A stretch of DNA of 48,218 bases from assembly GCA_905235535.1 (NCBI GenBank), contig CAJOLS010000008.1, positions 1-48,218 on the forward strand. The letters are read 5' to 3'. Each line of letters begins with the position of its first letter. The first letter of the stretch is position 1. The notes below the pieces were generated by a model, which was not told the DNA's origin, did not search any database, and saw nothing but the letters and a program-made list of their open reading frames with translations. This document shows, one piece after another, positions 15,593 to 40,109 of the stretch. The stretch is from an uncultured Bacteroidales bacterium. GTDB lineage: Bacteria; Bacteroidota; Bacteroidia; Bacteroidales; UBA932. Position numbers and translations under genes: made by a program.

Positions 15593-18500
15593 ATGGTAAA
15601 ACGATTCATTATGGTAACCCTTGCATGCCTCGTAGTGGGTGTGCAGGCGTTCGCTCAGAGTGTCGTATCCGGTAAGGTCATCGATGCGAAGGGCGAACCC
15701 GTGATCGGTGCCGGAGTCCAGATCAAGGGCTCCACCACCGGCGTTGCAACCGACTTGGACGGCGCTTTCAGCATCCGCGTGGATGACAACGCCACCCTCG
15801 TAATCTCCTCCATCGGCTACAAAACAGCCGAAATTGCCGTCCGCGGCAAGAAGACTATCAACATCGTGCTGGAAGAAGACACCCTTTTCCTGGACGATGT
15901 AGTGGTTGTCGGTTACGGCACCGCCCGCAAGCGTGACGTATCCGGCGCCATCGCCAGCGTGAACTACGGTAACGATTCCAACGTAGCCTCCCTGCCCAAC
16001 CCCAACGCCTTGTCGGCCCTGTCCTCCAAGGTGGCAGGTCTCAGCTACGATCCTACCAGCAGCGCTTCCGGCGACAACACCCAGACCATGACCATCCGCG
16101 GTAAGAACTCCATTCCTACCGGCGGTTCCATGTCTTCATCGGCCCAGAGCGTCAACCAGCCCCTGCTGGTGGTGGACGGTGTCCTTTCCTATGGCTCCAT
16201 CAACTCCATCAACACGGCCGATATCGAGAGCATCGATGTGCTGAAGGATGCATCCGCAGCCGCCATCTACGGTTCCCGTGCCGCTAACGGTGTTATCATC
16301 ATCACCACCAAGCGCGGCACCAGCAATGCCCCCACGGTGAACTTCAACGCCCAGGTGAGCATCTCCGACTGGAACCGCATGCCCCAGATGGTCACCGATA
16401 AGGAAACCTTCCTGAAGAACCGCTTCTACAGCAAGCAGGGCGCGAAAAATGCGGACTATATTGATAAAGACTGGTCCATGTTCTCCAGCCTGAACGATGC
16501 CGCCAGCTACACCGGCATGCTGGGCGCCCGCGAGCTGGAAGCCTGGAACGAAGGCAAATGGGTGAACTGGCTGGACGAGATTTCCCGCAAGGGCGTGGGC
16601 CAGAAATATGACGTGTCCGTCAGCGGCGGCAGCGACCGCGTAACCTACTACGTCTCCAGCGACTACACCCGTCAGCAGGGTATCCGCAAGGGTGACGACT
16701 ACGAGAAGTTCGGCGCCATGGCCAAATTGGATTTCAAGGTTACCGACTGGCTCTCCCTGGGTGCCAAGGCCAACTTCCTGTCCTCCAACAGCTGGGGTCA
16801 GCCCGCCAACATCCGCTATGCCATGTGGTACACCCCGCTCTCCTATGTCTATGCCCGTCAGCAGGGCTTCGAGGACTGGTACAACAGCCATCCGGACAAC
16901 AATACCGCAAGCCCCTTCGTCGGTTCCGGCAAGAACGACTCCTACGCCTATACGGACCGCCAGAGCAAGAGCACCAACCTCAACGGCGTGGCCTATGCCC
17001 AGGTTGACTTCCCCTTCCTCAAGGGTCTGAGCTACAAGATCACCCTCCAGGGTCAGCGCAATTCCGGTTATGGAGATGTGTACAATAGGCCGGAAATGTC
17101 CGTGAACACGGAAGACATCACCCAGATGCAGGATCCGATGCAGTATATCGGCAGCGTCACCGGCCAGATTTCTTCCTCCGACTACTTCGCCTGGAACATG
17201 GACCAGATCCTCACCTTCAACCGCGACTTCGGCCGTCACCATGTGGACGCCACCGTCGGTTACACCCGTGAGGCTACCAACAGCAATTCCATGGGCGCTT
17301 CCTTCACCGGTTATCCCACTCCCACCACCCTGGGCGTGTATAACATCGAGGCTGCCAACTCCACCACCGACATCTACCGCAACCGCGTAGAAACCCAGGC
17401 CGTGGGTTACCTGGCCCGCCTCAACTACAATTTCGCCAACAAGTACTACATCACCGGCAACTTCCGCCGGGACGGTTTCTCCGCTTTCGCCGATGGCCAC
17501 AAGTGGGGCAACTTCTACGGCGCCAGCGCCGCCTGGGTACTGAGCAACGAGCAGTTCATCAAGAACATGAACTTCTTCGACTTCCTTAAGCTGCGTGTTT
17601 CCTGGGGTCAGAACGGTGCCCGTAACATAAGCGCCGGCGCCACCCAGGCCACCATCAGCAAGGCCACGTCCAACAGCGGTGCTGCCACCATGACCTGGCT
17701 GGGAGATGTCAGCACCCTGGGCATGACCCTCACCAACCTTCCCAACCGTTCCCTCACCTGGGCAACCGTGGAGAAATTCAACGTGGGTTTGGACTTCGCT
17801 TTCCTGAACAGCCGCATCAGCGGTGCCGTGGACGTTTACTCCGGCCGCACCACCAATATGCTGGTAGCCCGTTCCGCCCCTTACATCTCCGGTTTCAACG
17901 ACGTGAACGACAACGTGGGCCTGGTGACCAACAAGGGTGTTGAAGTTTCCATCAATACCATCAATATCAATGGAGACGGCGACAGGACCTTCCGCTGGGA
18001 AAGCAACATCGTCTTCGACCACAACTCCAACAAGCTGGTTTCCCTGTTCGGCCCGGACTACAACGGCAACGAAGCCGACGACGTGGCCAACGCCGTTTCC
18101 TACGGCCGTGAATCCTACTATGCCCTCCAGGTGGGACGTCCCCTGGGCGCCGCCTACGACGTGAAGCTCCTGGGCATCTTCAACAGCCAGGCCGAGATTG
18201 ACGCCTATACCTGGACCAATCCCCAGACGGGTGAAGTCAAAAAGATTCAGCCCGATGCCGAGCCCGGAGACCTCAAGTTCGAAGACTTCAACAACGATGG
18301 CGTCATCGATTCCGACGACCGTCAGTACATCGGTTCCCCGGATCCGCTGTTCACCCTCAACTTCGGCAACACCCTCCGCTGGAAGAACTTCAGCCTGTAT
18401 TTCAACTTCCGCTGGGCCCAGGGTAACAAGGACCACTTCATCGGCCTTGACCCCTATGCCTTCGGAACCAATATGGGCGGCGGCGCCCAGCTGGCCCGCG

Positions 18501-19285
18501 TACAGCCCTGGACCAAAGACAACCAATCCCAGGTATTCCCCCGCTACGGATATTCCAACTACATGGAATACCAGTACTGGAACAGCCGCTCTTTCCTGAA
18601 GCTGAAAGACCTGGTGTTCTCCTACACCATTCCTTCCAAGGTTCTGCAGCCTTCCGGCATCAGCAACCTCCGTATCTATGTGGCCGCTACGGACCTGTTC
18701 ACCATTACCAACTGGTCCGGTCTGGATCCTGAAACCGGTGGTACCATCGCCGCCGGCGCCGCTTCCAGCCGCTTTGGCAGCAACGGTTCCTACAAGACGG
18801 TCACCTTCGGTGTGAACCTCACCTTCTCCGCTCCCGGCAAGAAGAAGAACGTTGCCGCCGCCGCTCCCGTGCAGGAAGTGATCAAGGAAGTCATCAAGGA
18901 AAGAATCGTTGAGAAACCCGTGGAGAAGATTGTGGAGAAAGTCGTGGTCAAGGGCGGCCTGGAAGGCAGCTATGAAGACAACCTGTTCTTCCTCATCGGC
19001 AAGGCCGAACTCCGTCCGGACGAGGCCTTCAAGCTGGGTCAGATTTGCCAGATCCTGAAGGAGAACCCGGATGCCAAGATTGCCATCTCCGGTTACGCCG
19101 ACAGCGCCACCGGCACCAAGGCCATCAACCAGACCCTCTCTGAGAAGCGTGCCGCCGTTGTGGCCGACATGCTGAAGAAGGCCGGCATCGCCGCTGGTCG
19201 CATCATCACCTCCGCCGTGGGTACTGACAGGAACGCTTCCGCCGCTCCCGCCTCCAACCGCGTCGCCGTATGCATTGTTAAATAA
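15593..19285 (+). CDS. SusC/RagA-family TonB-linked outer membrane protein with C-terminal OmpA-like domain
   Basis: Carboxypeptidase-regulatory-like N-terminus ([37 protein letters not shown]), plug ([32 protein letters not shown]...[33 protein letters not shown]), barrel ending VTFGVNLTF. Then linker [27 protein letters not shown] and [83 protein letters not shown]...[10 protein letters not shown] (OmpA-like). Confidence 0.95.
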   Translation: [1230 protein letters not shown]

Positions 19286-19295
19286 TTAACGCGCA

Positions 19296-21326
19296 ATGTC
19301 TATGAAAAAGTATATAATCATTCTTCTCGCAGCTGTTCTGGCCGTTTCTTGCAACGACAAGAAATTCCTGGAGGAGCGCACCTACGAGGACGATACCCAA
19401 AGCTTCTTCAAGAACCAGGGTTCCATCGAAATCGCCCTTGCCTCTGCATACTCCGAAGTCCAGTACATGGTATTCGGCAACCAGCGTGGCGGTTCCGAGC
19501 ACAACTGGATGCTCTTCGGCCTGGGCCTGGATACTATTTCCACCACCGGTGGCAACACCCAGTTCTCCAACTGGACTCTCATGAAAGACGACAGCGGTTA
19601 TGCCCGTCACTACGGAGAGTATATGTACAAACTTTCCAACCGTGCCAACATTGTGGTTGACATGATTGACGAGCATCCTGAAATTGAATATACCTCTGAA
19701 AGCATGAAGACCACCCTCCGCGCAGAAGCCGTGTTCCTCCGCGCCTGGGCCTTCCGTGTTATCACCGGTATGTTCGGCCAGGTTGTGTACTCCGACCACA
19801 TGACCCAGGAAGCCCGCTACGACTACGTAATGAATACCCGCGAAGAGGCTTGGGAGAAGATTGCCGCAGACTTCGAGTATGCCGAGCAGAACCTCCCCTC
19901 CACCCCCCGTCTGATGGGTACCGTGACCAAGGCAGCCGCCGCCCACTATCTGGCCGAGACCTATCTCTGCCTGGGTAAGTTCAAAGAGGCCGAAGATGCC
20001 GCTTCCCGCGTCATCAACAAGACCGACGGCAACTACGAAATCATGACCACCCGTTTCGGAAACCGTGCCGACCAGGCCGAAGACCGTTATGGCAACTCCC
20101 TCGCCGCCCCTCAGGGCGCCTATTGGGACCTCTTCCGTTCTTCCGGCAAGACCAAGGTGGGTGACTTCGCCGACGACTCCAACCCCAACGATCCCGGTAA
20201 CCGGGAAGCCATCTGGGTGGCCCAGATTGACTACGAAGCGGGTGTGGACAGCTGGCCCCTCGGCGGTTCCGGAGACTCCTGGTGGCGTATGCACAAGCCC
20301 GTTCTCGAATCCACTTTCGCTCCCTGGGTTCCCATGGGTGGAAAGAACGGTCAGAGAAAAGGCTCCGACGGCAAGAACTACTATGTTTTTACGGCCGATG
20401 CTGTCTGCTACCCTGTGGGCGTAGCTCCTGCCGGTGCCGGTGATCCTCCTGCAACCGTTGACGGTGAAGATCTGGAAGGACGTAAACTTGCCTATAACCT
20501 CTCCACCAGAATCGACTCCCTCGCCTGCCGTGCTCAGGGTGATGGTGCCGCCACTTCCCTGGGCCTGCTGCCCTCCGAATGGGTGGTTCGTCCCGCCGGC
20601 GACATCCTGGGTTCCTACTGGGACGACCCCAACGATTTCCGCGGTAGCGAAATCATGATCCAGCGCGACTACTACACCCCTTCCGGAAAGAAGTGGTCCG
20701 AGGTCAAGAAGGAGGTCCAGGCCCGTGTAGATGCCGGACTGTATGAGATAACCGCCGGTGATACCATCAACATCACCCCCCGTTTCTGGAAGTTCTCCGA
20801 CGACCGTCACATCTTCGACGCCGGCAACGCCTACTATGATACCGACTGGTACATGATTCGTATTGCCGAGACCTATCTGCTCCGTGCAGAGGCCCGTCTG
20901 GCCCAGGGCAACAAGGCCGGTGCCGCCGAGGACATCAACGTCCTCCGCAACCGTGCCGGCGCCAAGCCCTGCGCCGCCGACCAGGTGAACATCGACTACA
21001 TTCTGGACGAACGCGTACGTGAGCTCTTCGGTGAGGAGCAGCGCTGGATTACCCTCAGCCGCCTTAGCTGCAACCCGAATGCCACCTACGTCAGCGATTG
21101 CTATCCCACCCAGAACAACACCACTTCCAACACCTTCTATGAGCGCACCCGCAAATATGGTGTAGGCTATGAGAATGAAGACCGTGGCCGTGATGCTTAT
21201 ACCGACGCAATGGGTAACACCCGTCACCGTCCCAACGTCATGCCCTACAACTACATCCTCCCTATTCCTATCCAGATTATCCAGTCCAACAAGGACGTGA
21301 AGATTGACCAGAACTACGGTTATTGA
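19296..21326 (+). CDS. SusD/RagB-family nutrient-binding outer membrane lipoprotein
   Basis: MSMKKYIIILLAAVLAVSCNDKKFLEERTYEDDTQSFF; ...LRAEAVFLRAWAFRVITGMFGQVVYSDHM...YLAETYLCLGKFKEAEDAASRVI...IAETYLLRAEARLAQGNKAGAAEDINVLRNRAGA...ILDERVRELFGEEQRWITLSRL; immediately downstream of the susC-like gene. Confidence 0.96.
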   Translation: MSMKKYIIILLAAVLAVSCNDKKFLEERTYEDDTQSFFKNQGSIEIALASAYSEVQYMVFGNQRGGSEHNWMLFGLGLDTISTTGGNTQFSNWTLMKDDSGYARHYGEYMYKLSNRANIVVDMIDEHPEIEYTSESMKTTLRAEAVFLRAWAFRVITGMFGQVVYSDHMTQEARYDYVMNTREEAWEKIAADFEYAEQNLPSTPRLMGTVTKAAAAHYLAETYLCLGKFKEAEDAASRVINKTDGNYEIMTTRFGNRADQAEDRYGNSLAAPQGAYWDLFRSSGKTKVGDFADDSNPNDPGNREAIWVAQIDYEAGVDSWPLGGSGDSWWRMHKPVLESTFAPWVPMGGKNGQRKGSDGKNYYVFTADAVCYPVGVAPAGAGDPPATVDGEDLEGRKLAYNLSTRIDSLACRAQGDGAATSLGLLPSEWVVRPAGDILGSYWDDPNDFRGSEIMIQRDYYTPSGKKWSEVKKEVQARVDAGLYEITAGDTINITPRFWKFSDDRHIFDAGNAYYDTDWYMIRIAETYLLRAEARLAQGNKAGAAEDINVLRNRAGAKPCAADQVNIDYILDERVRELFGEEQRWITLSRLSCNPNATYVSDCYPTQNNTTSNTFYERTRKYGVGYENEDRGRDAYTDAMGNTRHRPNVMPYNYILPIPIQIIQSNKDVKIDQNYGY

Positions 21327-21345: not shown

Positions 21346-21377
21346 CGGCCCCCGTTTCCCGGGGCCGTTTTTTTTTG
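21346..21377 (+). terminator. Rho-independent terminator after the SusC/SusD pair
   Basis: CGGCCCC-CGTTTCCC-GGGGCCG followed by TTTTTTTTT. Confidence 0.85.
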
Positions 21378-21407
21378 TTCCAAAAATGATTAACTTTGAG
21401 AGTCTGT

Positions 21408-21439
21408 TTTGAAATGATTCAATAAATTCTTTATGTTTC
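21408..21439 (+). promoter_or_regulatory. Candidate rightward promoter: TTTG-N20-TATGTTTC inside the inverted-repeat element
   Basis: TTTG at 21408-21411 (inside the left repeat), 20-nt spacer, TATGTTTC (7/8 match to TAnnTTTG) at 21432-21439, about 107 nt upstream of the ATG at 21547. Confidence 0.4.
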
Positions 21440-21469
21440 TTTTTGGTAAATTTTCCTCAAAAATTTCCA

Positions 21470-21502
21470 CAAAAATAAACTATAAATAAAAATATCATCA
21501 AA
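21470..21502 (-). promoter_or_regulatory. Candidate leftward promoter: TTTG-N21-TATTTTTG inside the inverted-repeat element
   Basis: Minus strand TTTG (21502-21499, inside the right repeat), 21-nt spacer, TATTTTTG (21477-21470), a full TAnnTTTG match. Confidence 0.4.
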
Positions 21503-21546
21503 ACAGACTCTGAATTGAGTAATTGTCCTGTCAAATTTTAAGCCCC

Positions 21547-21999
21547 ATGAAAAGGATAGTACCTCTGTTGCTAAGTGTTTTTCTGGCCATGGCCTGGGCC
21601 TGTTCCAGCCGGCCCGCATTGGAAAAAGAAGCCTTTGACCGCCTGCCCAAGGCGTTGGAAAAGGCCATGGAGGAGCAGATGTCCATGCCCGGAGGGGCAG
21701 AGATTGTCTCCCCCGAGGTAATGTATTCCTGCGACAGCCTCTGCATTATCCAGTTCAAAGCCGTTGCCAAGGACCCCCGGAGCGAAGGTTTCAGTTTCCC
21801 GGTGCGCTATGTATTTTTAAAGGATGTTATCATGAGCCACGCCTACGGACATCCTGTCTTTGCAGAAAGAGTGTCCGGCTGCCCGGAAATGACGCCGGAG
21901 GAAATCCAGGAAACCAAGGACCAGTTCCTCAAAGACGCCGATAAGATTTATCCCTATTACGCTTCCGTTGCCAGCTTGATAACCCCGGAAGACTTATGA
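21547..21999 (+). CDS. Small lipoprotein of unknown function
   Basis: MKRIVPLLLSVFLAMAWACSSRPALEKEAFDRLPKALEKAMEEQMSMPGGAEIVSPEVMYSCDSLCIIQFKAVAKD...; 4-nt ATGA overlap with the next gene. Confidence 0.8.
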   Translation: MKRIVPLLLSVFLAMAWACSSRPALEKEAFDRLPKALEKAMEEQMSMPGGAEIVSPEVMYSCDSLCIIQFKAVAKDPRSEGFSFPVRYVFLKDVIMSHAYGHPVFAERVSGCPEMTPEEIQETKDQFLKDADKIYPYYASVASLITPEDL

Positions 22000-23672
22000 T
22001 GGACCGCTTTGCACTCGCCTTCAGGGAACAGCAGCAACTGTTCTTGCTGGACAAGACTTATCTTGTGCAAAGTCTGTTCACCGTGGGAGGAGTGGCAACG
22101 CTGTCCGGACGCTTTTTGGTCCAGTTTTTCTGGAACCCTGCCTTTGCGGTCCTCATTACCTTGGCTTTGTTGGGACTGGGGGCCTGGCTCCTCTGGTTTT
22201 CCGTGCGGGAAACGCGGGCCGACTGGCCTGTCCTGCCGCTCTGCCTCATTCCCTTCGCCTTCCTGTCGGCCTCCCTGTCGGAGAATGCCATGCACTACAG
22301 CGTGCTCACGGCCTGGCTCCTTGCGCTGGGGGCCCTTTGCGGCTATTCCCGCATCCGTTCCCATAGACTTGCGTGGGGCATCCTGCTCACCATGGCCACC
22401 TACCTGGCCGCCGGGCCCGCCGCCCTCCTCTTTGCAGTCTGTGCCGCGGTCTTGGACTTTTTCCGGAAAGAGTGGGCATCGGCCCTGTACATCCTTGCAG
22501 CCCTTGCATGCGGCCTGGGGGCCTGGCTGCTGGCTTGGACGCCCACTTTGGGGCGGGCCCTGACGCCCTCTTTCTACTACGACCTGGACGCCCCCATGCC
22601 TGTGGCCCACTGGATTCCCTGGATGGTCCTGCCCCTTTCGGTAGCGGCCTGCCGGGCAGCCCAAAAGCTTCAAGGCAAGCGCTTCCTGGTTCCGGGCGGC
22701 TGCACCGCCGTCTTCCTCCTGGCGCTTCTTCCCGCCTTCCGGATGGCCCAAAATACCGAGGACAGGCAGCCCGGAATCACTTATGAATATGAGTATTACG
22801 TAGCAAACGAAGACTGGGACGGGCTGCTCAAGGCCTGCCGTTCCCACGAATGGATTCCCCATACCGCCCAGTACCTGAACCTGGCCCTGTCCTGGAAAGG
22901 CCAGCTCCTGACAGACCTGCTCAAATACGACCAGCGGGGCCCCACGGGTCTCATGATGATGAGCGAAGGCCGCGGGGTGGAGACCACCCAGGCCCATATC
23001 ATGTTTGCCATGGGCAATATGGCCGCCGCACAGGACGTAGCCTTCAACACCCTCAACTCTACGGAAGGCTTCTGCCCCACTATGCTCAAGATGAATGCCC
23101 AAGTGGAACTGATGAGAGGCACCTACGCCGTGGCAGACAAATACCTTTCCCTCCTGGAAAAAGCGCCCCACTACCGGCGCTGGGCCCGGGAGCAAAAGCG
23201 CTTCCTCTATAATGACCGGGCCGTGGAGGAGGATTCCCTGCTGGGCAACGGACGCCGCAGCTGGCCCGTCATGGACGGATTTGCCATGTTCGGGAACCCC
23301 CTGGAGGAAATCATGCGGGTCATCGACGCCAATCCTTCCGACAAAAGGGCCCTGGAATATGCCCTGGCGTATATGCTCCTGGCCAAGGACATCAAGGGAG
23401 TGACCGGAGTGGTGGACCGCTATTACGGGAAACCGGGGCTGCCTTCCCTTCCCGTTTCCGTGCAGGAAGCCGTCCTGTTTTACAGCGAATACACGCGCAA
23501 TATAGGCGGGAACAACAACCTGGGCCCGGACTGGTGCGCCGCCCACGGGGTTGCGGAAGGCACCTTCCGCCGCTTCCAGACCTTCCAGGAAGAGAGCCTC
23601 AAAAGCGGAGGCAAGGCCCCCAAAGGGTACAACTCTTCCTATTGGTATTATTTAGTATATAAGGAGATATGA
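21996..23672 (+). CDS. DUF6057-like multispan membrane protein with soluble C-terminal helical-repeat region
   Basis: 558 aa; about half is hydrophobic segments (YLVQSLFTVGGVATLSGRFLVQFFWNPAFAVLITLALLGLGAWLLWF...), followed by TPR-like ITYEYEYYVANEDWDGLLKACRSHEWIPHTAQYLNLALSWKGQL. Family name is from memory. Confidence 0.7.
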   Translation: MMDRFALAFREQQQLFLLDKTYLVQSLFTVGGVATLSGRFLVQFFWNPAFAVLITLALLGLGAWLLWFSVRETRADWPVLPLCLIPFAFLSASLSENAMHYSVLTAWLLALGALCGYSRIRSHRLAWGILLTMATYLAAGPAALLFAVCAAVLDFFRKEWASALYILAALACGLGAWLLAWTPTLGRALTPSFYYDLDAPMPVAHWIPWMVLPLSVAACRAAQKLQGKRFLVPGGCTAVFLLALLPAFRMAQNTEDRQPGITYEYEYYVANEDWDGLLKACRSHEWIPHTAQYLNLALSWKGQLLTDLLKYDQRGPTGLMMMSEGRGVETTQAHIMFAMGNMAAAQDVAFNTLNSTEGFCPTMLKMNAQVELMRGTYAVADKYLSLLEKAPHYRRWAREQKRFLYNDRAVEEDSLLGNGRRSWPVMDGFAMFGNPLEEIMRVIDANPSDKRALEYALAYMLLAKDIKGVTGVVDRYYGKPGLPSLPVSVQEAVLFYSEYTRNIGGNNNLGPDWCAAHGVAEGTFRRFQTFQEESLKSGGKAPKGYNSSYWYYLVYKEI

Positions 23673-25105
23673 GAAAGCTAATCCCCATCCTGCTGTCCGG
23701 AGTCCTGCTTCTCTCGTCGTGCTCCGGGAACATACACCCTTCCGGAACCATCGGCAGCCTGCCGCCCTTGGAGCCGGACTACAGTTTTGTGACGGTTCCC
23801 CGCAATATAGCACCTCTCAATTTCTCCTATACCGGAAGCGAAGAATGCGCCCTCCAGGTAGAGGGACACACCCTTAGGGGCCGGGAGGGCCTGTTTTCCT
23901 TCCCGCTCCGCCTGTGGAAGGAGCTGATGACCCGGGACCAGGTGGAAATGACCGTCCTGGTGCGCCAGGAGGGGGAATGGAAAGCCTTCCAGCCCTTCAC
24001 CATTACCGTGAAGGAAGATATAGACCCCTACATATCTTACCGCCTCATCCCCCCCGGCTACCAGGGCTGGCAGAAGATGGGCATTTACCAGAGGGACCTG
24101 ACAAGCTATAAGCAAAGCGCCATCCTGTCCAACGACCTCACGGACGGAAACTGCATGAACTGCCACACCACCCTGGGCGGAGACCCGTCCAAAAGCGTTT
24201 TCCATGTAAGGGCGGCCCACGGAGGAACCATCCTGACAGACGGAAGCTCCATAGAAAAACTGAACACCCGGACGGACTCCACCATCAGCGCCCTGGTGTA
24301 CCCTTACTGGCACCCGTCCGGAGACTATATAGCCTTCTCCGTGAACAAAACCCTCCAGTCTTTCTACAACCACGGGGAAGACCGGATAGAAGTGTATGAC
24401 ATGGCTTCCGACGTGGTGGTGTATGACGTTCACGGCAAAGAAATTGCCTGGAGCCCCCTCACCAAGGGCAAAGACCATTTTGAGACTTTCCCCACCTTCT
24501 CCCCCGACGGCCAATGGCTGTACTTCTGTTCGGCCCGCGCCGTGGAGATGCCCAAAGACTTCAAGCAGGTGCGTTACGGCCTGTACCGCATTGCCTTCAA
24601 CGCCCGGGACATGAGCTTCGGGGACCGTCTGGAATGCCTCTACGACGCCCCGGCCGAAGGGTACAGCGTCTCTTTCCCCCGCATTTCACCGGACGGACGC
24701 TTCCTTTGCTTCACCCGCCACGGCTACGGCAATTTCTCCATCTGGCACAAGGATGCAGACCTTTGGATGATGGATTTGGAAACCCTGGAAAAATGGCCCT
24801 TGGAAGCCGCCAATTCCCCGGAAACGGACAGTTTCCACAGCTGGAGCGGCAACGGCCGATGGATGGTTTTCAGCAGCCGCCGGGGAGACGGCCTCTACAC
24901 CCGCCCGTACTTTACCTACATAGACGAGGAAGGCAAGGCTTCCAAGCCTTTCCTCCTGCCCCAGAAGAATCCCGGGGCATATTACAAACGCCTTATGGAC
25001 TCCTATAACCTGCCGGCCTTCCTGAAAGGGCCCATGAAAATGTCCAAACACAGGATTGTTTCCGAAATCAGGGAATCCTCTGGAGTGGACGTACAAGTGA
25101 AATAA
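23669..25105 (+). CDS. Lipoprotein with TolB/PD40-like beta-propeller repeats and a single CxxCH motif
   Basis: MRKLIPILLSGVLLLSSCSG (lipobox); NDLTDGNCMNCHTTLGGDPS (CMNCH at 24152-24166); repeated YWHPSGDYIAFSVN, TFSPDGQWLYFCSAR, RISPDGRFLCFTRHGYG, SWSGNGRWMVFSSRRGDG blades. Confidence 0.8.
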   Translation: MRKLIPILLSGVLLLSSCSGNIHPSGTIGSLPPLEPDYSFVTVPRNIAPLNFSYTGSEECALQVEGHTLRGREGLFSFPLRLWKELMTRDQVEMTVLVRQEGEWKAFQPFTITVKEDIDPYISYRLIPPGYQGWQKMGIYQRDLTSYKQSAILSNDLTDGNCMNCHTTLGGDPSKSVFHVRAAHGGTILTDGSSIEKLNTRTDSTISALVYPYWHPSGDYIAFSVNKTLQSFYNHGEDRIEVYDMASDVVVYDVHGKEIAWSPLTKGKDHFETFPTFSPDGQWLYFCSARAVEMPKDFKQVRYGLYRIAFNARDMSFGDRLECLYDAPAEGYSVSFPRISPDGRFLCFTRHGYGNFSIWHKDADLWMMDLETLEKWPLEAANSPETDSFHSWSGNGRWMVFSSRRGDGLYTRPYFTYIDEEGKASKPFLLPQKNPGAYYKRLMDSYNLPAFLKGPMKMSKHRIVSEIRESSGVDVQVK

Positions 25106-25115: not shown

Positions 25116-27500
25116 ATGATAAAAAGAACTACTCTGCTGGCAGCCCTGCTGCTTGTTTCCTGCCTGGGAGCCCTGGCCAACCCCATCCACCAGGTAAAAC
25201 TGGCCGACGGCACCACCGTGGGCATTGAAGTATGTGCCGATGGCATTTTCCACGTACAGATTTCTCCCGGCGGCACCTTCTCAGAAACCCTGATGACCCG
25301 TTACGGCATCACCCGCAGCGACTGGCCGGAAGTGGACTACACCCTGGAGCAGCAGGCCGGAGCCCATGTCTTCCAGAGCGCCAAAGCCTGCCTCACCCTT
25401 TCCCAGGAGGGCGTTATCACCCTCAAGGACGCGGAAGGGAAGACCATCGTCCGCCAAATCTGCTTCCTGAGGCCGGGAAGCGCCCCGGTAAAGGTTTTGG
25501 CCGATGCCGTGAACCAGAAATTCGCAGACCTCTTCGTGCCCGTGAACAACGGCATCATCGGAGACGATGAGGGCAAGCTTTCGGGAGGCGCCCGGCTGGA
25601 CGCCGGAAACCCCGAAGTGGCCAGCGGCCTCTCCCTGACCATGGAAGACGGAGAGCGTTTTTACGGAGGCGGCAGCACCTCCCGGGAGCACATCCAGCAC
25701 CGCGGGGAGCTGCTGAGGATGTGGACCACCTACCAGCACACGGAGATTCCCATGCCCTTCATGATGAGCTCCCGCGGCTGGGGCATCTTCAACAACACCT
25801 CCCGCAAATGCCATTTTGACGTAGGGTACACCAACCCGGACGCCTTCAACATTTACAACACCTTCCCCGAGGCCGATTTCTACCTCATGCTGGGAACGGA
25901 CATGCCTTCCATCCTCAACCTCTACACCCAAATCACCGGCCGAAGCTATGTACTTCCCCGCTGGGCGTACGGCTTTGCCTTCGGCCCCAATATGAGGGAA
26001 GACCAGTGGGCCATCCTGAACGACGCCGCGCACTTCCGCGAGATGGGCGTTCCCGTAGATCTTTTCTGGCTGGAGCCTCAGTGGATGGCCAAGCGCTACG
26101 ACTTCTCCACCAAGAAATCCTGGAACTACGACCGTTTCTCCCCGGAGCCGTACTGGGTGCAGGACCAGATGCCCAAGAAATACTATCCCCGCCTGTTTGT
26201 GGGCAAGCTCAACAGCATGGGCATCCGCCTGGGCCTGTGGCTGTGCGAGGAATACGACGCCAGCATCATTGAGGAAGACCTCATTGCCGTGCGCGAAGGA
26301 AGGGACACTTCCGGCCTGGAACACTGGCCGGACCACCTCACCACCTTCATGGACATGGGCGTGGCCGGTTTCAAGCTGGATCCCGCCCGCACCATCGACG
26401 CCCATCCCACCTGGAGCTACCACAACGGCCGGGGAGACGACGAGATGCACAACATCAGCCAGGTGCTCATGCCCAAGCAGATTGCCCAGATGACGCGCCG
26501 CCACACCGGCAAGCGCAGCTGGCACCACTACTGCGGCGGCTGGGCCGGCAGCCAGCACTGGAGCGCCGCCAACAGCGGAGACAACGGCGGCGGAATAGTG
26601 GCCCTCTTCGACCAGCACAACCTGGGCAATTCCGGCTTCATGAACATGAGCTGCGACGTGATGAGCGTCCCCCGCGAGCAGGAAATGCCCGGCCTCCACT
26701 TCGGCGTCTTCCTCCCCTGGCTGCAGGTGAACAGCTGGTTCAGCATGATGCAGCCCTTCTATTACCACGGCGTGGAGAAGGAAATGTACAAGTTCTATAT
26801 CGGCCTGCGCTACTCCTTCATTCCCTATATCTATTCCAATGCCCTGGAAGGCATGCTTACCGGTATGCCCATGGTGCGTTCCATGCCCCTGGAATTCCCC
26901 GAAGACCGCAACTGCGACGACATGGTGTTCCAGTACATGTTTGGCAGGCAGTACTGCGTAAGTGCCTTCTCCAACGACATTTACCTGCCGGCCGGGGAGT
27001 GGATCAACGTGTGGACGGGAGAACTGGTGGAAAGCCGCGGGGAAACCATTTCCCGGGAACTTCCCCACAACCGGGCCGGACAGCTTTTTGTGCGCAACGG
27101 AGCCATCGTCCCCACCCGTCCGGTGGTGGATTTCATTGGCACGGAGCCCCAGAAAGACATTATCCTGAAGGTATATCCCCACGGGAATACCAGCTTTACC
27201 ATGTATGACGACGACGGAGAAAGCTATGCCTACGAAGACGGCGCCGTCTGCTCCACCCTCTTTGAATGCCGGGAAAACGGCAAGAGCATACACGTCACCG
27301 TGAACCCGGTGGAAGGCAGCTACGAAGGCCTGCCGGACAGCCGCAACTACAGCTTTGAGCTGCGCTGCACCTCCAAGCCCCGGAAGGTGAGCCTGAACGG
27401 CACGCCCGTCAAGGACTGGAGCTGGGAGAACAACACCCTTCAGGTGAATGCCGGAGAAACTTCCATCACCCAAACCCTTACGCTTACCGTACAGTTATAA
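25116..27500 (+). CDS. GH31-family glycoside hydrolase
   Basis: RFYGGGSTSREHIQHRGELLRMWTTY...LPRWAYGFAFGPNMREDQWAILNDAAHFREMGVPVDLFWLEPQWM...MGVAGFKLDPARTIDAHP...HYCGGWAGSQHWSAANSGDN...RYSFIPYIYSNALEGMLTGMPMVRSMPLEFPED; C-terminal DUF5110-like region. Confidence 0.88.
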   Translation: MIKRTTLLAALLLVSCLGALANPIHQVKLADGTTVGIEVCADGIFHVQISPGGTFSETLMTRYGITRSDWPEVDYTLEQQAGAHVFQSAKACLTLSQEGVITLKDAEGKTIVRQICFLRPGSAPVKVLADAVNQKFADLFVPVNNGIIGDDEGKLSGGARLDAGNPEVASGLSLTMEDGERFYGGGSTSREHIQHRGELLRMWTTYQHTEIPMPFMMSSRGWGIFNNTSRKCHFDVGYTNPDAFNIYNTFPEADFYLMLGTDMPSILNLYTQITGRSYVLPRWAYGFAFGPNMREDQWAILNDAAHFREMGVPVDLFWLEPQWMAKRYDFSTKKSWNYDRFSPEPYWVQDQMPKKYYPRLFVGKLNSMGIRLGLWLCEEYDASIIEEDLIAVREGRDTSGLEHWPDHLTTFMDMGVAGFKLDPARTIDAHPTWSYHNGRGDDEMHNISQVLMPKQIAQMTRRHTGKRSWHHYCGGWAGSQHWSAANSGDNGGGIVALFDQHNLGNSGFMNMSCDVMSVPREQEMPGLHFGVFLPWLQVNSWFSMMQPFYYHGVEKEMYKFYIGLRYSFIPYIYSNALEGMLTGMPMVRSMPLEFPEDRNCDDMVFQYMFGRQYCVSAFSNDIYLPAGEWINVWTGELVESRGETISRELPHNRAGQLFVRNGAIVPTRPVVDFIGTEPQKDIILKVYPHGNTSFTMYDDDGESYAYEDGAVCSTLFECRENGKSIHVTVNPVEGSYEGLPDSRNYSFELRCTSKPRKVSLNGTPVKDWSWENNTLQVNAGETSITQTLTLTVQL

Positions 27501-29779
27501 TGAAAAAAGCCCTTCTCTTTGCCGCCTTCCTTGCCCTCGCCTCCTGTGCGGCCGGGGACTGGCGGGATGCATCCCTCCCCGCCGGAAAGAGGGCCTCTCT
27601 CCTGCTGAAGGAGATGACGCTGGAAGAAAAAATCGGCCAGATGTGCCAGTACGTGGGTCCCTGCTATGTTCCGCCGGACCAGGGGTCTCCATATAAGAAT
27701 ATAGACGCATCCGACGAGAATCTGGGCAATCCCCAGCTGGCCCGTCGCATCCGGGAAGGAAAGGTGGGGGCGTTCCTGCACGTGCTCACCGGAGAAGAGG
27801 CGCACCAGTTGCAGGTGATGGCCGCCGAATCCCGCCTGGGCATTCCCCTGCTGCTGGGCATTGACGCCATACACGGCAACGGCCTAAGGATGGGCTGCAC
27901 GGTGTATCCCGGTAACATCGGCCTTGCCTCTACCTTCCGTCCGGAACTGATGGAGAAGATTGGGGCCGAAACGGCCGAGGAAATGCGCCAGACCGGCATG
28001 TACTGGACTTTTGCACCCAACCTGGACGTGGCCCGCGACGCCCGCTGGGGCCGCATGGGAGAATGCTTCGGGGAAGACCCCTGGCTGGTGGCCCAGATGG
28101 GAAAATATGAAATCTGGGGCCTGCAGGGCCGGGACGGCAAGTTCTCCGAAGGGAAAGTGCTGGCCTGCGCCAAGCATCTGATTGGCGGCGGAGAACCCGC
28201 CGGAGGCCTCAACGCCGCCCCCATGGACATGAGCGAGCGCAAGATGCGGGAACTGTACCTCCCGCCCTTCGAAGCGGCCGTGAAGGAAGCCGGTGTGGCC
28301 ACGGTAATGACCGCCCACAACGAGCTCAACGGCGTTCCCTGCCACGCCAACAAGTGGCTGGTAGAGGATGTCCTGAGAAAGGAAATGGGCTTCGAGGGCT
28401 TTGTGGTAAGTGACTGGATGGACATCGAGCGCCTGCACAGCATGCACCACCTGGTTCCCAGCGAAGAGGAGGCTTTCCTGGTCTCCGTGGAATCCGGAAT
28501 TGACATGCACATGCAGGGAGACCATTACTTCGAATCTGTACTGCAAGGGGTTCGGAGCGGCCGCATCCCGGAAAAGCGGATTGACGAGGCCGCCCGGAAA
28601 ATCCTTACCGCCAAGTTTGCCCTGGGCCTGTTTGAAGAGCCCGTTCCTCCCCTCCCCACGGAGAGAGGCTTTGCCGGAAATGCCCGGCACAGGCAAACCG
28701 CTCTGGAAGCGGCCCGCGAAAGCATCGTCCTTCTCAAGAACGACGGCATCCTGCCCCTCAAAAACTACGGCCGCATCTTCCTCTGCGGGCCCAATGCCAA
28801 CAGCCAGACCCAGTTGGGAGACTGGGTGGTTCCCCAGGCCGATGAAGACGTAGTCACCGTGTTCGAAGGCCTGCAGGAAGCCTTCCCGGAAGCCCGCATA
28901 GACACCCTTTTCTTCGGAGGGCGCGTGACGGGAGTGGACCAGGCCGGACTGACAAAGGCATCGGCCCTGGCCCGTCTGGCCGACATCAATATCCTCGTCC
29001 TCGGAGACAATTCCCAGCGCTATTCATCCTACGGCCGCACCTGCGGAGAGAACTGCGACCGGGACAACATAGACCTTCCCGGACGTCAGCAGGAGCTGCT
29101 GGAGGCGGTGGCGGCATCGGGCCGTCCCACTATCCTGCTCCTGATGAGCGGCCGCGCCCTGGGTGTGGAATGGGCGGCGGAAAGCCCTTCCGTCCGGGCC
29201 ATCCTCAATGTCTGGGAGCCCGGCCAGATGGGAGGAACGGCCATCGCCGAAATCCTGACGGGGGCCGTGAACCCTTCCGGCAAGCTTCCCGTCACCATTC
29301 CCCGCAACGTGGGCCAGATCCAGTGCGTGTACAACCACAAGCACTCCCAGTATTCCCGCCACTTTGCCCTGGCCGAACAGGGGCCGTTGTACCCCTTTGG
29401 CATGGGCCTCAGCTATACCCGCTTCGAATACGGACAACCGCAGCTTTCCAAGAGCGTGATTAACGCCGGTGAAAGCGTACAGCTCACCGTGGAGCTCACA
29501 AACGCCGGCCCCTGCGACGGCGCAGAGGCCGCGCAGCTCTACATCCGGGACGAATACGGTTCTGTTACCCGTCCCGTGAAAGAGCTGAAGGCCGTGCAGA
29601 AACCTTTCCTGAAGGCCGGGGAAAGCACCACGCTGGTATTTGAGATAACCCCCGCCATGCTGGCCTGCTGGGGGGCAAAAGAAAAATGGGAAGTGGAACC
29701 CGGTGAATTCACCATCATGATTGGTTCCACTTCCGCAGATGAAGATTTGCAAACTGTCTCTCTGACCGTCAATACATGA
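27500..29779 (+). CDS. GH3-family beta-glycosidase, lipoprotein
   Basis: MKKALLFAAFLALASCAAGDWRD; LLLGIDAIHGNGLRMG...TFAPNLDVARDARWGRMGECFGEDPWLVAQMG...GFEGFVVSDWMDIERLHS...SIVLLKNDGILPLKNYGRIFLCGPNANS...C-terminal fibronectin III-like domain. Confidence 0.95.
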   Translation: MKKALLFAAFLALASCAAGDWRDASLPAGKRASLLLKEMTLEEKIGQMCQYVGPCYVPPDQGSPYKNIDASDENLGNPQLARRIREGKVGAFLHVLTGEEAHQLQVMAAESRLGIPLLLGIDAIHGNGLRMGCTVYPGNIGLASTFRPELMEKIGAETAEEMRQTGMYWTFAPNLDVARDARWGRMGECFGEDPWLVAQMGKYEIWGLQGRDGKFSEGKVLACAKHLIGGGEPAGGLNAAPMDMSERKMRELYLPPFEAAVKEAGVATVMTAHNELNGVPCHANKWLVEDVLRKEMGFEGFVVSDWMDIERLHSMHHLVPSEEEAFLVSVESGIDMHMQGDHYFESVLQGVRSGRIPEKRIDEAARKILTAKFALGLFEEPVPPLPTERGFAGNARHRQTALEAARESIVLLKNDGILPLKNYGRIFLCGPNANSQTQLGDWVVPQADEDVVTVFEGLQEAFPEARIDTLFFGGRVTGVDQAGLTKASALARLADINILVLGDNSQRYSSYGRTCGENCDRDNIDLPGRQQELLEAVAASGRPTILLLMSGRALGVEWAAESPSVRAILNVWEPGQMGGTAIAEILTGAVNPSGKLPVTIPRNVGQIQCVYNHKHSQYSRHFALAEQGPLYPFGMGLSYTRFEYGQPQLSKSVINAGESVQLTVELTNAGPCDGAEAAQLYIRDEYGSVTRPVKELKAVQKPFLKAGESTTLVFEITPAMLACWGAKEKWEVEPGEFTIMIGSTSADEDLQTVSLTVNT

Positions 29780-32591
29780 CCACCGGTCCTATGAGGCCGG
29801 CCGGTATGAGCGGCGTATTCCTGCGCAGGATAAAGCGCTGAACCACCCGGTTGTCCGGAAGCGTCTGCAAGTAATTGCTCATCAGGGTGGTAACCTTCAC
29901 CTCAAGGGTGTTGGCACCCGGTTTCAAAAGCCCGTCCACTTCCAGTACGGCATTCCCGTACCAGTGAAGGCCGGCGGGTTTTCCGTTGATGGCAACCTCG
30001 GCTATATAGCCCACCTTCCCCAGGTTCAGGTAACGGGGCATCTTGCCGGAAGGAAGGTCCACATCGGCCGTGTAGGTGACTACGCCCATGAAATTCTGGT
30101 AGGCGGGAAGGTCTTTCAGGTCTGAGAGCGTATCCATCACGGCGGGCGGGACATCCGGCACTTCGGGGTTCTGGAAGCTCACCTTCCAGTTTCTCACCTC
30201 TATGCCTCCGGTAGAAACCTGGGGGGCCTTCCATTCGGGAGCCTTGCCGCCCATCTTGTTGAACATGAACACAAAGCTCTCGGAAGGGCCAAAATCAAAG
30301 TGGAGCTTTCCGTCGGCCGGAATCTTCAGGGAATAACGCTTCCCGGTGGCCGGGTCGTACAGCCAGGCCTTGCGGCCACGGGTGACGCTGGCCGGGAAGG
30401 TGATGTCCGTGCTCTTGCCTTCCACACGGCTGGCGTTCACAAAGAGGAAGAAGTTGCTGCCGTCGTCCATCACATAGCGGTTCTGGAGCAGGAAGCGGTC
30501 CGGCTGGGAAAGGGTGAGGGTGTGCGGCAGGGAATACTGCTGCATGATATCTGCATACCACTCCAGGAAGCGGTTGTCCTCGGGTTTGGGCAACAGGACA
30601 AAGCGTCCGGTCTTTTCCAGTTCCTTCACAATCTCTGCCACACGGGCGTTGCGGGCGTCGGCATCGGCCATTCCCACAGACTTCTCCGGATAGGTTTCTA
30701 TGCAAAAGACACGGCCGCCGCCCAGGACAAACTCCCGGATTTTCTCCATGGCTTCCACCGTGGTTCCCCTCACCTCCACGGTGAAGAGCACACTGTATTC
30801 CTTGGGACCGTAGCAAAGTTTTCCATTTTTCACGGTAGCGCCCTCCAGGATGCGTTCAGAGACATAATCGGCCCCGCCGCCGTTCTTGTGAATGGCTTCC
30901 CATACCAGGGAGGTGTAGGGCACATTCAGCTTCACGGGAAAGGGCTCCGTCTGCACGCCCATGGTGGACCAGAGGTCTGCATTGGCGGGGAGGATGGCCA
31001 TGTCCGTGTACATATCGGCATTCCTCACCAGCGCACCCATGCGGGCCCGGTAGTCGTTCAGGAGCTTGAAGTAAGGCCACCAGGTGTTTTTCTCGTTGTA
31101 GTAGCTTCCGTAGCGCACCCAGCCCGGGAAGGGAGCTTCCTTGGGCGAGTAATTGAACCCGTGCCACACGGAATGGGTGATGCCGGAGATGCACGTCATG
31201 TCGGACCCCACTTTCAAGTATTCCAGCGAGGTGGAGAATACATTATAAGTATTGGTCATCTCCTCGGCACTTACCAGGCGCTTCCCCTGCAAGTGGGCGG
31301 CCGACGAAACATACTTGTCAATCATGGTGTAGGCCCTGCCGCGGCGGTAGTCCTGGTCTCCCATTTCCTCTCCCACCACGTGGCGCAGCCAGTTGGTGGT
31401 CCAGGACTCCCCTTCCGGAATGTCCACAGTCATGGAAGTCTCCAGCGGGAAAAATCCGCAGCCATAGGCCTGGGCGCGGGCTTTCACCCCATGTTCGTTG
31501 CACCATTCGCGGTACACCCGGAAGAAGCGCTCTTCCAGCAGCTCGGCCTTGGTGAGTTCGAAATCGTAGCGGGCGCGGTTCACCTGGTCCTGGAACTTTT
31601 CTCCCTTGGCGCAGCCGTAGTTGAAGTTCTCCACTTCTCCCAGGCGGCGCAGCTTGAACATGGTGAAGGGCAGCCAGGGCAGGATGTCATAGCCGCGGCG
31701 GCGGCGGAACTCATAGGCAAAATCGGCCGTCCAGTTGGCTCCCTCCAGTTCCATGCTGTCCACAAAGAACGCGCGAAGATACTGGGACAGGGGGCCGAAA
31801 CGGGCTTCCAGCTTATTGGACATGCCATCCAGGTATTTCCTTACGGCAGCGGCATTCATGTGGTCCAGGATGGGACCGGCGGCGCCCGGGGCGCCGTTGA
31901 TGACACTGGCGAAGGAATTGTACTTGACCATGTAATACACCTGCCATCTGCCCTCCGGAACTTCCATGGTAAGGAGGCCGTCCTTCACCAGGGAGGTAAT
32001 GTCCCGGGCCTCGGAAAGGTCGTTGATGGGGTCCGGCACCAGGAGCACTTTCAACAGCTCCGGGGTGCGGCTGGGATGGGGCGTGGTGGCCTTGGGATCC
32101 AGTTCCTTATATACATGGAAGAGGGACTGGTCGTAGAGGGTGCCCGCCTTGGCCGTGGTGTCGCAGTACGTGAGGATGACGGAAGCCCTTTCCTCGCGGG
32201 GAAGGGATTCGGCCCCGAAAGGCCAGCCGGAACCCACGATGAGGTCGCAGGTCATGCCCAGCTTTTTGGCCTCGTCAAAGGCCACCGCCAGCATGTCAAT
32301 CCATTCGTCGCTGAGCCAGGTGAGCGAAGGAAGCTGCAAATCGTCCACTCCTTCCTTGCCGGGGTATGCCACCGGGTTAATCTCCACACCGGCAATGCCC
32401 GCTTCTTTCAGGAGGTTCAGCTCCCGGCGGATTTCGCTTTCCTGCACCTTGTCTCCGTTCCACCACCAGCGAACATAAGGCCGATAGGCGTCATCGGGGT
32501 TCTGGAAAGCCTCCCAGACTTTCTTGGAGTTGTCACCGAAAAGGGGCAGGCATGCCATTGCAGCAGCCAGGGTAATCAGGATTCTTTTCAT
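29769..32591 (-). CDS. GH106-like (alpha-L-rhamnosidase-type) glycoside hydrolase
   Basis: MKRILITLAAAMACLPLFGDNSKKVWEAFQNPDDAYRPYVRWWWNGDKVQESEIRRELNLLKEAGIAGVEINPVAYPG...GMTCDLIVGSGWPFGAESLPREE...SMELEGANWTADFAYEFRRRRGYDILPWLPFT. Confidence 0.8.
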   Translation of the reverse strand: MKRILITLAAAMACLPLFGDNSKKVWEAFQNPDDAYRPYVRWWWNGDKVQESEIRRELNLLKEAGIAGVEINPVAYPGKEGVDDLQLPSLTWLSDEWIDMLAVAFDEAKKLGMTCDLIVGSGWPFGAESLPREERASVILTYCDTTAKAGTLYDQSLFHVYKELDPKATTPHPSRTPELLKVLLVPDPINDLSEARDITSLVKDGLLTMEVPEGRWQVYYMVKYNSFASVINGAPGAAGPILDHMNAAAVRKYLDGMSNKLEARFGPLSQYLRAFFVDSMELEGANWTADFAYEFRRRRGYDILPWLPFTMFKLRRLGEVENFNYGCAKGEKFQDQVNRARYDFELTKAELLEERFFRVYREWCNEHGVKARAQAYGCGFFPLETSMTVDIPEGESWTTNWLRHVVGEEMGDQDYRRGRAYTMIDKYVSSAAHLQGKRLVSAEEMTNTYNVFSTSLEYLKVGSDMTCISGITHSVWHGFNYSPKEAPFPGWVRYGSYYNEKNTWWPYFKLLNDYRARMGALVRNADMYTDMAILPANADLWSTMGVQTEPFPVKLNVPYTSLVWEAIHKNGGGADYVSERILEGATVKNGKLCYGPKEYSVLFTVEVRGTTVEAMEKIREFVLGGGRVFCIETYPEKSVGMADADARNARVAEIVKELEKTGRFVLLPKPEDNRFLEWYADIMQQYSLPHTLTLSQPDRFLLQNRYVMDDGSNFFLFVNASRVEGKSTDITFPASVTRGRKAWLYDPATGKRYSLKIPADGKLHFDFGPSESFVFMFNKMGGKAPEWKAPQVSTGGIEVRNWKVSFQNPEVPDVPPAVMDTLSDLKDLPAYQNFMGVVTYTADVDLPSGKMPRYLNLGKVGYIAEVAINGKPAGLHWYGNAVLEVDGLLKPGANTLEVKVTTLMSNYLQTLPDNRVVQRFILRRNTPLIPAGLIGPVVMY

Positions 32592-34096
32592 TTTTTGTCC
32601 GTAAAAATATTGGCAAAACCAATGACGAGGTCTATGTCGGAAGGCTTCTCGGTCCAGTTAAAGGACACTTTGTGCTCTCCCGGAGGAAGATCCCAAATCT
32701 GGCAGAGTTCCGTTCCCCTGCCATTTCCGGATGTGGGGAGGAAGACGGTCTTGTAGGGAGCGCCGTCCACCAGGACCTCCACCCGGGCTTTGTAATCCGT
32801 TACGGAATAGTCTTTGGGGAGGACAAAGCGGTAGGAAAAGACCGCCCCGCTGCCTTCGAAACTGAATTCCCCCAGATCGGCCAATGTTTTGTTGATACTC
32901 TGTTTGGCAACGGGCCATAACCCTTCGAAGCTCTGCTCCAGCCGTACGGGTTCCGGGACTTGCGTCCGTATGGTGACGGTGCTGCCCTCCGTGGAGCCAC
33001 CCTGAAGGGCAATGACCTTCAGGGCCTGGTTGAAGCTCATCTGGCAGGCGCGGTTCAGGGAAATGTCCGTGTATTTGAAATCCACATCCGCCACTTCGTA
33101 AAGGGGTGATTTCCAGCGCTCCGGAATCTTGTCAAATCCCAGGACAGTGCCCAGGATGCCGCCGGCCGAAGCCGGATTGCAGTCCGAATCCTGGCCGCAG
33201 CGGGTGGCAATATCAAGGGTGCGGAAGAAATCTCCCTGGCCGTACAGCAGGCCGATGACGATATACGCGCTGTTGATGACCGCGTCTATGTTGAAAGGGG
33301 CATTAAACCCGCCGGGACAGCCGATGTCGTAGCCGTAATGCTCATTGGCCAGCGCCCAGGTTATGTGCCAGTCGTCGGGGTACTGCTTCCACCAGCGGAT
33401 GACGTCACGGATGCACCTGTAGTATTTGCTTTGTTCGGGAATGGTCCTGAGGGCCTCGCTCACGATGTAGGGGATGTCATCGCTGATAAAGGCCAGGGCA
33501 TACATGGCCGCCACGTAAACGCCGCCATACCAGCCGTCTCCATAATTCATGATATGGCCGATACCATCGGTAAAATCCGTTGCGGCATTCACCATGCCCG
33601 GGGCCATGATGCCGGCATAATCGGCCTCAATCTGGAAGTCGATGTCATCGGCATGGGCGTTGTTGCGCCAATGCCCCGACTCGGGAGGCATGATACCCTC
33701 CCGTATGTTGTAGCGGGCCTGCAGGTTGGCGTGCCACAGGGGGTATCCGGCTTCGGCAAAGGCCTTGGCAAAAGATTCCACAGGAGCGTCCAGTCCCTCC
33801 TGTTCAAACACCTCCACGAAGGTGAGGTCCATATAGACGTCGTCGTACAGGCCGGGCGAATGGTCGTACCACCACTTCACGCTATGCTCATTCCAGTCAA
33901 TGGCATATTCGTCGGAGATGAAAGTGGGGAATTTGAATTCCGTCGGCCCTCCATAAGTACAGCCGATGACCTGTCCGGCCCAGGCCCCGCGAATCTTGTC
34001 CATCAGGACGTCCTTATCCAGGGTAACCTGGTTCCGGGGCTGTGCGCAGCCTATGGCAAGCAGCGCACAAAGGACTAATGGGTATCTGTGAAGCAT
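32588..34096 (-). CDS. Exported ADP-ribosylglycohydrolase-fold protein, predicted lipoprotein
   Basis: MLHRYPLVLCALLAIGCAQPRN (lipobox); DKIRGAWAGQVIGCTYGGPTEF, GLYDDVYMDLTFVEVFEQEG, CGQDSDCNPASAGGILGTVLGFDKIPERW (ADP_ribosyl_GH metal-site-like DD and DxD motifs). Confidence 0.85.
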   Translation of the reverse strand: MLHRYPLVLCALLAIGCAQPRNQVTLDKDVLMDKIRGAWAGQVIGCTYGGPTEFKFPTFISDEYAIDWNEHSVKWWYDHSPGLYDDVYMDLTFVEVFEQEGLDAPVESFAKAFAEAGYPLWHANLQARYNIREGIMPPESGHWRNNAHADDIDFQIEADYAGIMAPGMVNAATDFTDGIGHIMNYGDGWYGGVYVAAMYALAFISDDIPYIVSEALRTIPEQSKYYRCIRDVIRWWKQYPDDWHITWALANEHYGYDIGCPGGFNAPFNIDAVINSAYIVIGLLYGQGDFFRTLDIATRCGQDSDCNPASAGGILGTVLGFDKIPERWKSPLYEVADVDFKYTDISLNRACQMSFNQALKVIALQGGSTEGSTVTIRTQVPEPVRLEQSFEGLWPVAKQSINKTLADLGEFSFEGSGAVFSYRFVLPKDYSVTDYKARVEVLVDGAPYKTVFLPTSGNGRGTELCQIWDLPPGEHKVSFNWTEKPSDIDLVIGFANIFTDKK

Positions 34097-34656
34097 CCCG
34101 ATTCGCTGATTTCGCTGTTAACGGCCTCATAGAATTTCCCGGGAGTTGCCGGATTGCGGTACAGCACCTTGTCCAGGACAATTCCCTTGCAGTTTTCGAA
34201 GTAGAAGAGGGTGGGAACGGGCGTATCGCCGCCGATATATCCCTTGGCCTTCTGGTCTTCGTAGCTCTTGAGCACCAAAGGCGCGCGGCCGTCCACCACG
34301 CCGTTGCCCCGGGTTGCATAGATTTTCACGTTCTCCACGCCGATGGCGTTGAAAATGGCCTTCTGACCCTTGTAGTCGTGGATATTGTCCGACCCGATGA
34401 TGTCGGCGGCGGCATCCAGGCGGATATTCACGCCGCTTTTCAGATAGACGGCGCCCGTCACATAGCGGCCCACGCAGAAAGTGAGGGTGCCGCCTCCCTT
34501 TTCGGCAATGATATCGATGGCCTTCTGGATGCTGGTGGTATTGTCGATGATGCCGTTGCTCTTGATGCCGAAATGGGATGCCTGATATTCCTTATCCTGT
34601 GCAAAAGCGCCGATGGAAACGAGCGCGGCAAGGATGGTTATAATAATCTTTTTCAT
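34075..34656 (-). CDS. Short right-handed beta-helix protein (N-terminal GH28/pectate-lyase-like region), possibly truncated
   Basis: MKKIIITILAALVSIGAFAQDKEYQASHFGIKSNGIIDNTTSIQKAIDIIAEKGGGTLTFCVGRYVTGAVYLKSGVNIRLDAAADIIGS; only 193 aa; 3' end overlaps the next gene by 22 nt. Confidence 0.75.
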   Translation of the reverse strand: MKKIIITILAALVSIGAFAQDKEYQASHFGIKSNGIIDNTTSIQKAIDIIAEKGGGTLTFCVGRYVTGAVYLKSGVNIRLDAAADIIGSDNIHDYKGQKAIFNAIGVENVKIYATRGNGVVDGRAPLVLKSYEDQKAKGYIGGDTPVPTLFYFENCKGIVLDKVLYRNPATPGKFYEAVNSEISESGCFTDTH

Positions 34657-34662
34657 ATCCGC

Positions 34663-36159: not shown

Positions 36160-36177
36160 TTTTTATGTGTTCGTTAA

Positions 36178-38759: not shown

Positions 38760-38773
38760 GATTAGTATGGTAT

Positions 38774-40108: not shown

Positions 40109-40109
40109 A

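Follow-up and report, generated by a model that had tools for sequence, protein, structure and literature searches.

A conserved gene pair of DUF6057 and a CxNCH beta-propeller lipoprotein, apparently undescribed, in the envelope of Bacteroidales

Results

A DUF6057-propeller gene pair in a Bacteroidales locus

We examined a 48,218-nucleotide (nt) stretch of DNA from an uncultured Bacteroidales bacterium (contig CAJOLS010000008.1; hereafter the window), in which genes for a small lipoprotein, a DUF6057 membrane protein and a beta-propeller lipoprotein bearing a CxxCH motif lie behind a SusC/SusD pair and before two glycosidase genes, GH31 and GH3 (Table 1). A first-pass annotation of the sequence had read the first three as one module working with the GH31/GH3 pair. 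Its open reading frames were all exact, as were the 4-nt overlaps (ATGA at 21996-21999 and at 23669-23672), the 10-nt gap from the propeller gene to GH31 and the 1-nt GH31/GH3 overlap, and its description of an envelope unit that is coupled in translation and lies behind a terminator of its own was supported. However, the conserved unit is two genes, DUF6057 (PF19529) and the PD40 propeller lipoprotein, and not three. The pair is a real and conserved two-protein envelope module, apparently undescribed, the function of which we infer below. As had been anticipated, the libraries and papers that were searched held no characterised pathway matching this combination of a membrane protein of non-canonical type with a propeller lipoprotein bearing CxxCH, and no paper on the pair was found in the literature on DUF6057, on CXXCH propellers, on PD40, cytochromes and polysaccharide utilisation loci, or on transposon sequencing (TnSeq).

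Co-occurrence was surveyed in 198 Bacteroidales genomes by DUF6057 profile and propeller alignment searches with strong thresholds. The same 21 genomes carried both families and no others carried either above these thresholds, with sub-threshold weak matches to both families observed outside the 21. About one in ten of the sampled Bacteroidales genomes carries the pair, with up to seven copies per genome. DUF6057 was observed elsewhere in the phylum at low frequency (above the cut-off in 6 of 396 genomes), and proteins of about 410 amino acids (aa) from one distant family gave a weak DUF6057-like match below the cut-off.

In 117 of the 144 DUF6057 loci the propeller gene followed directly downstream in the same orientation, at a median gap of 3 nt. 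Among these 117 the two genes overlapped in 44 instances and lay within 30 nt of each other in 108; many of the remaining 27 loci were at contig ends or had broken frames. Pairwise distances among DUF6057 proteins correlated with those among propellers (Mantel r 0.84, a value not reached in any of 500 permutations). Where a locus held tandem pairs, each protein was best fitted by its own neighbour (22 of 22 loci). The correlation partly reflects shared descent, but the tandem-locus result does not. One pair of Parabacteroides distasonis, annotated as 'DUF6057 family protein' and 'PD40 domain-containing protein', was found between pfkA and meaB, and a second lies two genes behind SusC/SusD. A tandem DUF6057-propeller-DUF6057-propeller arrangement behind SusC-SusD and a lipoprotein of about 250-500 aa was observed in Prevotella-type loci (L125, L131, L133, L135, L139, L142, L149, L151).

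The DUF6057 protein

The protein previously called 'DUF6057-like' is a true DUF6057, matching PF19529 at an E-value of 2.3e-119 and 400.3 bits (cut-off 29.8) over profile positions 26-569 of 569. It was modelled by AlphaFold (AF2) with a pLDDT of 93 and is predicted to have eight transmembrane (TM) helices, compared with nine in the family. Foldseek neighbours of its C-terminal helical domain were TPR superhelices, none below E 0.001, and the neighbours of the protein included LapB and LbcA, both periplasm-related TPR proteins. A search of the sequence against the PDB found nothing. Mean lysine plus arginine content of successive loops alternates (2.4, 0.3, 2.8, 0.0, 2.8, 2.4 in the long loop, and 3.4); in the topology predicted from this pattern, both the first loop and the TPR-like domain lie outside the cytoplasm, in the periplasm.

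Some members of the family consist of one TM helix and the TPR-like domain only, yet adjoin a propeller. Examples are P0002 in the window's own genome and L101:3101-4066, whose coordinates give a 4-nt overlap with the propeller gene. Because members without the membrane half still pair with a propeller, the TPR-like domain is the core of DUF6057. The membrane half was much less conserved than the propeller. A natural short DUF6057 (356 aa), made up of a single TM helix and the TPR-like domain alone, was observed at L038:12419-13489 (G000, contig C4), preceded by a DUF4369 lipoprotein gene (L038:11876-12415) and followed in the same genome by a propeller gene and a GH5 gene.

The propeller lipoprotein and its CxNCH motif

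The window propeller scored 70 bits against PD40 (cut-off 20.9), and its AF2 model (pLDDT 94) shows a beta domain at the N-terminus and about six blades, counted by eye from the strands. Its Foldseek neighbours were propellers of the prolyl oligopeptidase type and those of cd1 and thiocyanate dehydrogenase, all at low TM-scores. Assignment to TolB of Tol-Pal was rejected (TIGR02800, 37.3 bits vs a cut-off of 343.15). The lipobox cysteine, Cys18, was present in all 72 aligned propellers, while two or more acidic residues after the lipidated cysteine were seen in 11% of propellers vs 74% of SusD proteins (the window sequence reads CSGNIHPSG). Given the lack of this acidic export signal, the propeller is probably oriented towards the periplasm, where the TPR-like domain is also placed. 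A surface-exposed lipoprotein is not supported, and the surface sensor suggested by the first-pass annotation is unlikely, since the propeller is without the Bacteroidota surface-export signal seen in SusD.

CxxCH was present in all 141 near-full-length propellers, in 139 of them as C-x-N-C-H. Eleven residues were invariant in the 72 aligned propellers: C162, N164, C165, H166, H179, R181, H215, D244, N382, H390 and R405. The invariant CxxCH together with the further invariant histidines make a c-type haem or metal site likely, as judged from sequence. A CcsA-like cytochrome c assembly gene (PF01578) was present in 49 of 50 and in 21 of 21 carrier genomes, compared with 143 of 177 genomes without the pair (p 0.0015 and 0.028 by Fisher's test; the genomes share ancestry and are not independent). 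The window's own genome, which holds PF01578 as a fragment, was counted as present.

Organization of the locus and its local partners

Coordinates of the features are collected in Table 1.

Table 1. Features of the window around the DUF6057-propeller pair.
Feature	Coordinates	Strand	Remarks
SusC with C-terminal OmpA domain (context)	15593..19285	+	
SusD (context)	19296..21326	+	
Intrinsic terminator after SusD	21346..21377	+	separates the module from SusC/SusD transcription
TAACTTTG, Bacteroidota -7-like (TAnnTTTG) box	21391..21398	+	possible promoter
Small lipoprotein	21547..21999	+	150 aa; matches nothing in Pfam/NCBIfam; confined to a rumen clade, orthologues in L078-L081 only
DUF6057 (PF19529), TM1-less subfamily	21996..23672	+	558 aa; predicted N-terminal periplasmic loop, 8 TM helices and periplasmic TPR-like domain
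TPR-like superhelical domain of DUF6057	22767..23669	+	aa 258-558; part kept by short family members
PD40 six-bladed propeller lipoprotein	23669..25105	+	478 aa; N-terminal beta domain
C162-M-N-C-H166 codons of the propeller	24152..24166	+	predicted inner strand of blade 1
GH31 glycosidase	25116..27500	+	local partner; co-transcribed judging by layout
GH3 glycosidase	27500..29779	+	local partner; 1-nt overlap with GH31

The terminator noted in the first-pass annotation was recovered by a terminator scan as a 7-pair all-GC stem (21346-21367) with a T tail to 21377. SusD is followed by an equivalent hairpin in each of the four closest relatives (L078-L081), so the window terminator is not due to chance. 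A TAnnTTTG box, identified by eye, lies 3' of the terminator in the window and in L078, L079 and L080 and is missing from L081. In the spacer that separates the SusD terminator from the lipoprotein gene we also observed a 113-bp AT-rich element (21399-21511) with inverted ends, AGAGTCTGTTTTGA...TCAAAACAGACTCT, present in about 40 near-identical copies in the 2-Mb genome and absent from the equivalent L078 spacer. It looks like a miniature inverted-repeat transposable element with TA-type target sites.

Relatives of the 150-aa lipoprotein were found only in L078-L081, from Bacteroidales of the rumen, reticulum and omasum whose propellers share 80% to about 60% identity with that of the window; none was found outside these five loci of the set, and none in plasmids. 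The 4-nt overlap between the lipoprotein and DUF6057 genes was likewise seen directly in L078, and the window and these four are exactly the 5 of 69 loci whose DUF6057 lacks TM1. A survey of the flanks of 40 loci and 80 named genome loci thus did not bear out a three-gene module, finding the lipoprotein in five closely related loci and DUF6057 with the propeller generally. Elsewhere the place upstream of the pair was taken by a lipoprotein of about 283 aa whose acidic signal resembles that for surface export (23 loci) or a DUF4369 lipoprotein (14 loci). GH31-GH3 follow the pair in L078 and GH28-GH31-GH3 in L080 and L081, with neither arrangement in L079. Such neighbours occur in only a few relatives, so obligate GH31-GH3 coupling was rejected, and the claim that the module works with these enzymes was not supported; the coupling to GH31-GH3 and to the small lipoprotein is a feature of one rumen clade.

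Of 41 testable loci, 19 had SusC on the same strand no more than 8 kb upstream, 4 had it downstream and 17 had none, so obligate SusC/SusD linkage was also rejected. The pair is therefore a portable two-gene module, often inserted in glycan-uptake operons, and not a Sus component. As first annotated, the window SusC carries an OmpA domain; this peptidoglycan-binding fusion was observed only in the window and in L078 (2063-5719) among the loci checked, the SusC proteins of L079-L081 being shorter (1072-1084 aa). In 12 loci a chorismatase-like protein (FkbO/Hyg5-type N-terminal part plus a RidA-type part) was encoded beside the pair, in most cases immediately downstream, for example L111:11420-12571, L123:11515-12702 and L118:3758-4933. 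Further along the window (29769-46060) lie genes for GH106, an ADP-ribosylglycohydrolase, a GH28-like protein, GH127, a phosphatase-like protein, a fucosidase, a large metallophosphoesterase and GH92; the content of this block suggests a pectin-type or complex plant glycan as its target.

Discussion

We tentatively propose, with a confidence somewhat short of even, that one envelope complex is built from DUF6057 and the CxNCH propeller as its two subunits and has a cofactor site, probably serving a periplasmic redox or cofactor-dependent step. DUF6057 would be anchored in the inner membrane and would display its predicted TPR-like domain in the periplasm, where the periplasm-facing propeller lipoprotein may dock on it. 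CxNCH and the invariant His179, His215 and His390 would form the cofactor site, most likely for a covalent c-type haem and otherwise for a bound metal, and the complex would carry out the redox or cofactor-dependent step. The window pair, placed behind SusC/SusD and before GH31-GH3, may work beside the uptake of a plant (pectin-type) glycan. Among candidate roles for the motif we rank c-type haem ahead of a non-haem metal and a structural role, in that order, the first being leading but unproven.

Several observations weigh against this proposal. The CcsA-like gene is common, occurring in 136 of 149 genomes (91%) in the genus of one Prevotella carrier; given this and the shared ancestry of the genomes, the carrier test is weak and within Prevotella has no power. 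In known c-type cytochromes CxxCH lies in a helical turn, unlike the CxNCH of the propeller, which was placed in a beta-strand (162-169) of the apo model. Apart from a weak Paired_CXXCH match in 2 of the 72, no propeller matched a cytochrome c family, and redox genes were not recurrent neighbours of the pair. A stronger version of the proposal, in which the propeller founds a previously undescribed class of c-type haemoprotein, with haem in the first blade of a six-bladed propeller lipoprotein, a dedicated inner-membrane TPR partner, and a redox complex repeatedly installed beside glycan-uptake loci by Bacteroidales, we regard as unlikely.

The pair might alternatively be a non-catalytic assembly or bridging factor similar to BamB/YfgM or TolB, with the inner-membrane TPR protein handing over the outer-membrane propeller, or coupling it, to SusC-type receptors, and with the Cys and His residues having a structural role (disulfide or zinc). 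TPR and propeller domains are both classic folds for interaction between proteins, the fold neighbours include LapB and LbcA, SusC lies upstream more often than downstream, and the window SusC has its OmpA domain. That domain is limited to two of the loci checked, however, many testable loci are without SusC, and in P. distasonis a pair stands among housekeeping genes; the number of polar residues that never vary (C, N, H, R and D among them) is also more than a scaffold needs. On balance this explanation appears rather improbable.

Less credible again, in our view, is a GT-C glycosyltransferase, in which the periplasmic TPR-like domain of DUF6057 would pick protein acceptors, the propeller would be partner or acceptor, and the pair would glycosylate envelope proteins such as lipoproteins. 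In animals the TPR-bearing GT-C-type enzymes TMTC and TMEM260 pick protein acceptors, and DUF6057 shares the layout of TM1, a loop with two amphipathic helices, TM2 and a periplasmic C-terminal TPR-like domain. Alignment with the PMT_2 set by hhalign gave 72.8% probability, co-linear from TM1 (16-188 with 6-179), which falls between a true GT-C pair (96%) and reversed-profile controls (up to 43%). The family glutamate E11 (63 of 69) aligned on the GT-C 'DE', and the window protein had a weak DUF2142 match. Against this, the membrane half had no PDB fold match at E < 0.001 and no GT-C among its 50 best by Foldseek, the window subfamily has lost TM1, and the one-TM members that still pair with a propeller are without the first loop. 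Distant GT-C ancestry is possible, but a catalytic GT-C role is doubtful because the membrane half is dispensable in some members. The channel or glycosyltransferase of the first-pass annotation is accordingly not established. Very improbable is a carbohydrate-active enzyme (CAZyme), such as a lyase that binds its metal through His in the manner of the PL22 oligogalacturonate lyases and acts in the window's pectin-type locus. The several invariant His of a PD40 propeller and the presence of GH28, GH88, GH106 or GH31 near some copies speak for it. Against it, the window protein has no CAZyme family match (PL22 Pfam included) at E up to 1, a majority of loci lie outside CAZyme clusters, and the obligate membrane partner is left unexplained.

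The complex with a cofactor site that we prefer would, if true, give DUF6057 its first function. If the propeller binds haem or metal and the TPR-like domain, a redox component would be added to envelope systems near polysaccharide utilisation loci. The pair occurs in cultured gut species such as P. distasonis, yet we found no paper naming it.

Comparison with known systems

DUF6057 is a family of unknown function to which the window protein is a full-length match; the member in the window differs, together with its four nearest relatives, in being without TM1 and in having the small lipoprotein before it. The propeller resembles PD40/TolB-like propellers (PF07676) in its PD40 repeats, in being a periplasmic propeller lipoprotein or envelope protein, and in the OmpA-domain protein nearby in the window, and differs from TolB of Tol-Pal in its CxNCH motif and in being partnered by DUF6057 rather than by Tol genes. 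With monohaem c-type cytochromes it shares an invariant CxxCH in an exported protein and assembly genes in the carriers, but its motif is predicted in a propeller strand and no cytochrome c domain was recognised in it. The cd1 nitrite reductase and thiocyanate dehydrogenase, both among the Foldseek matches, are propellers too, and carry redox cofactors; they differ in blade number and ligands, have no sequence similarity and gave TM-scores of 0.27-0.38. TMTC/TMEM260 and PMT (GT-C with or without TPR) are comparable in the membrane half, the extracytoplasmic TPR-like domain and an acidic residue in the first loop, but the profile similarity is weak and the DUF6057 membrane half has been lost in some members. 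As to SusC/SusD polysaccharide utilisation loci, the pair is outside the canonical Sus set and many copies lie apart from any SusC, but it often follows SusC-SusD on the same strand.

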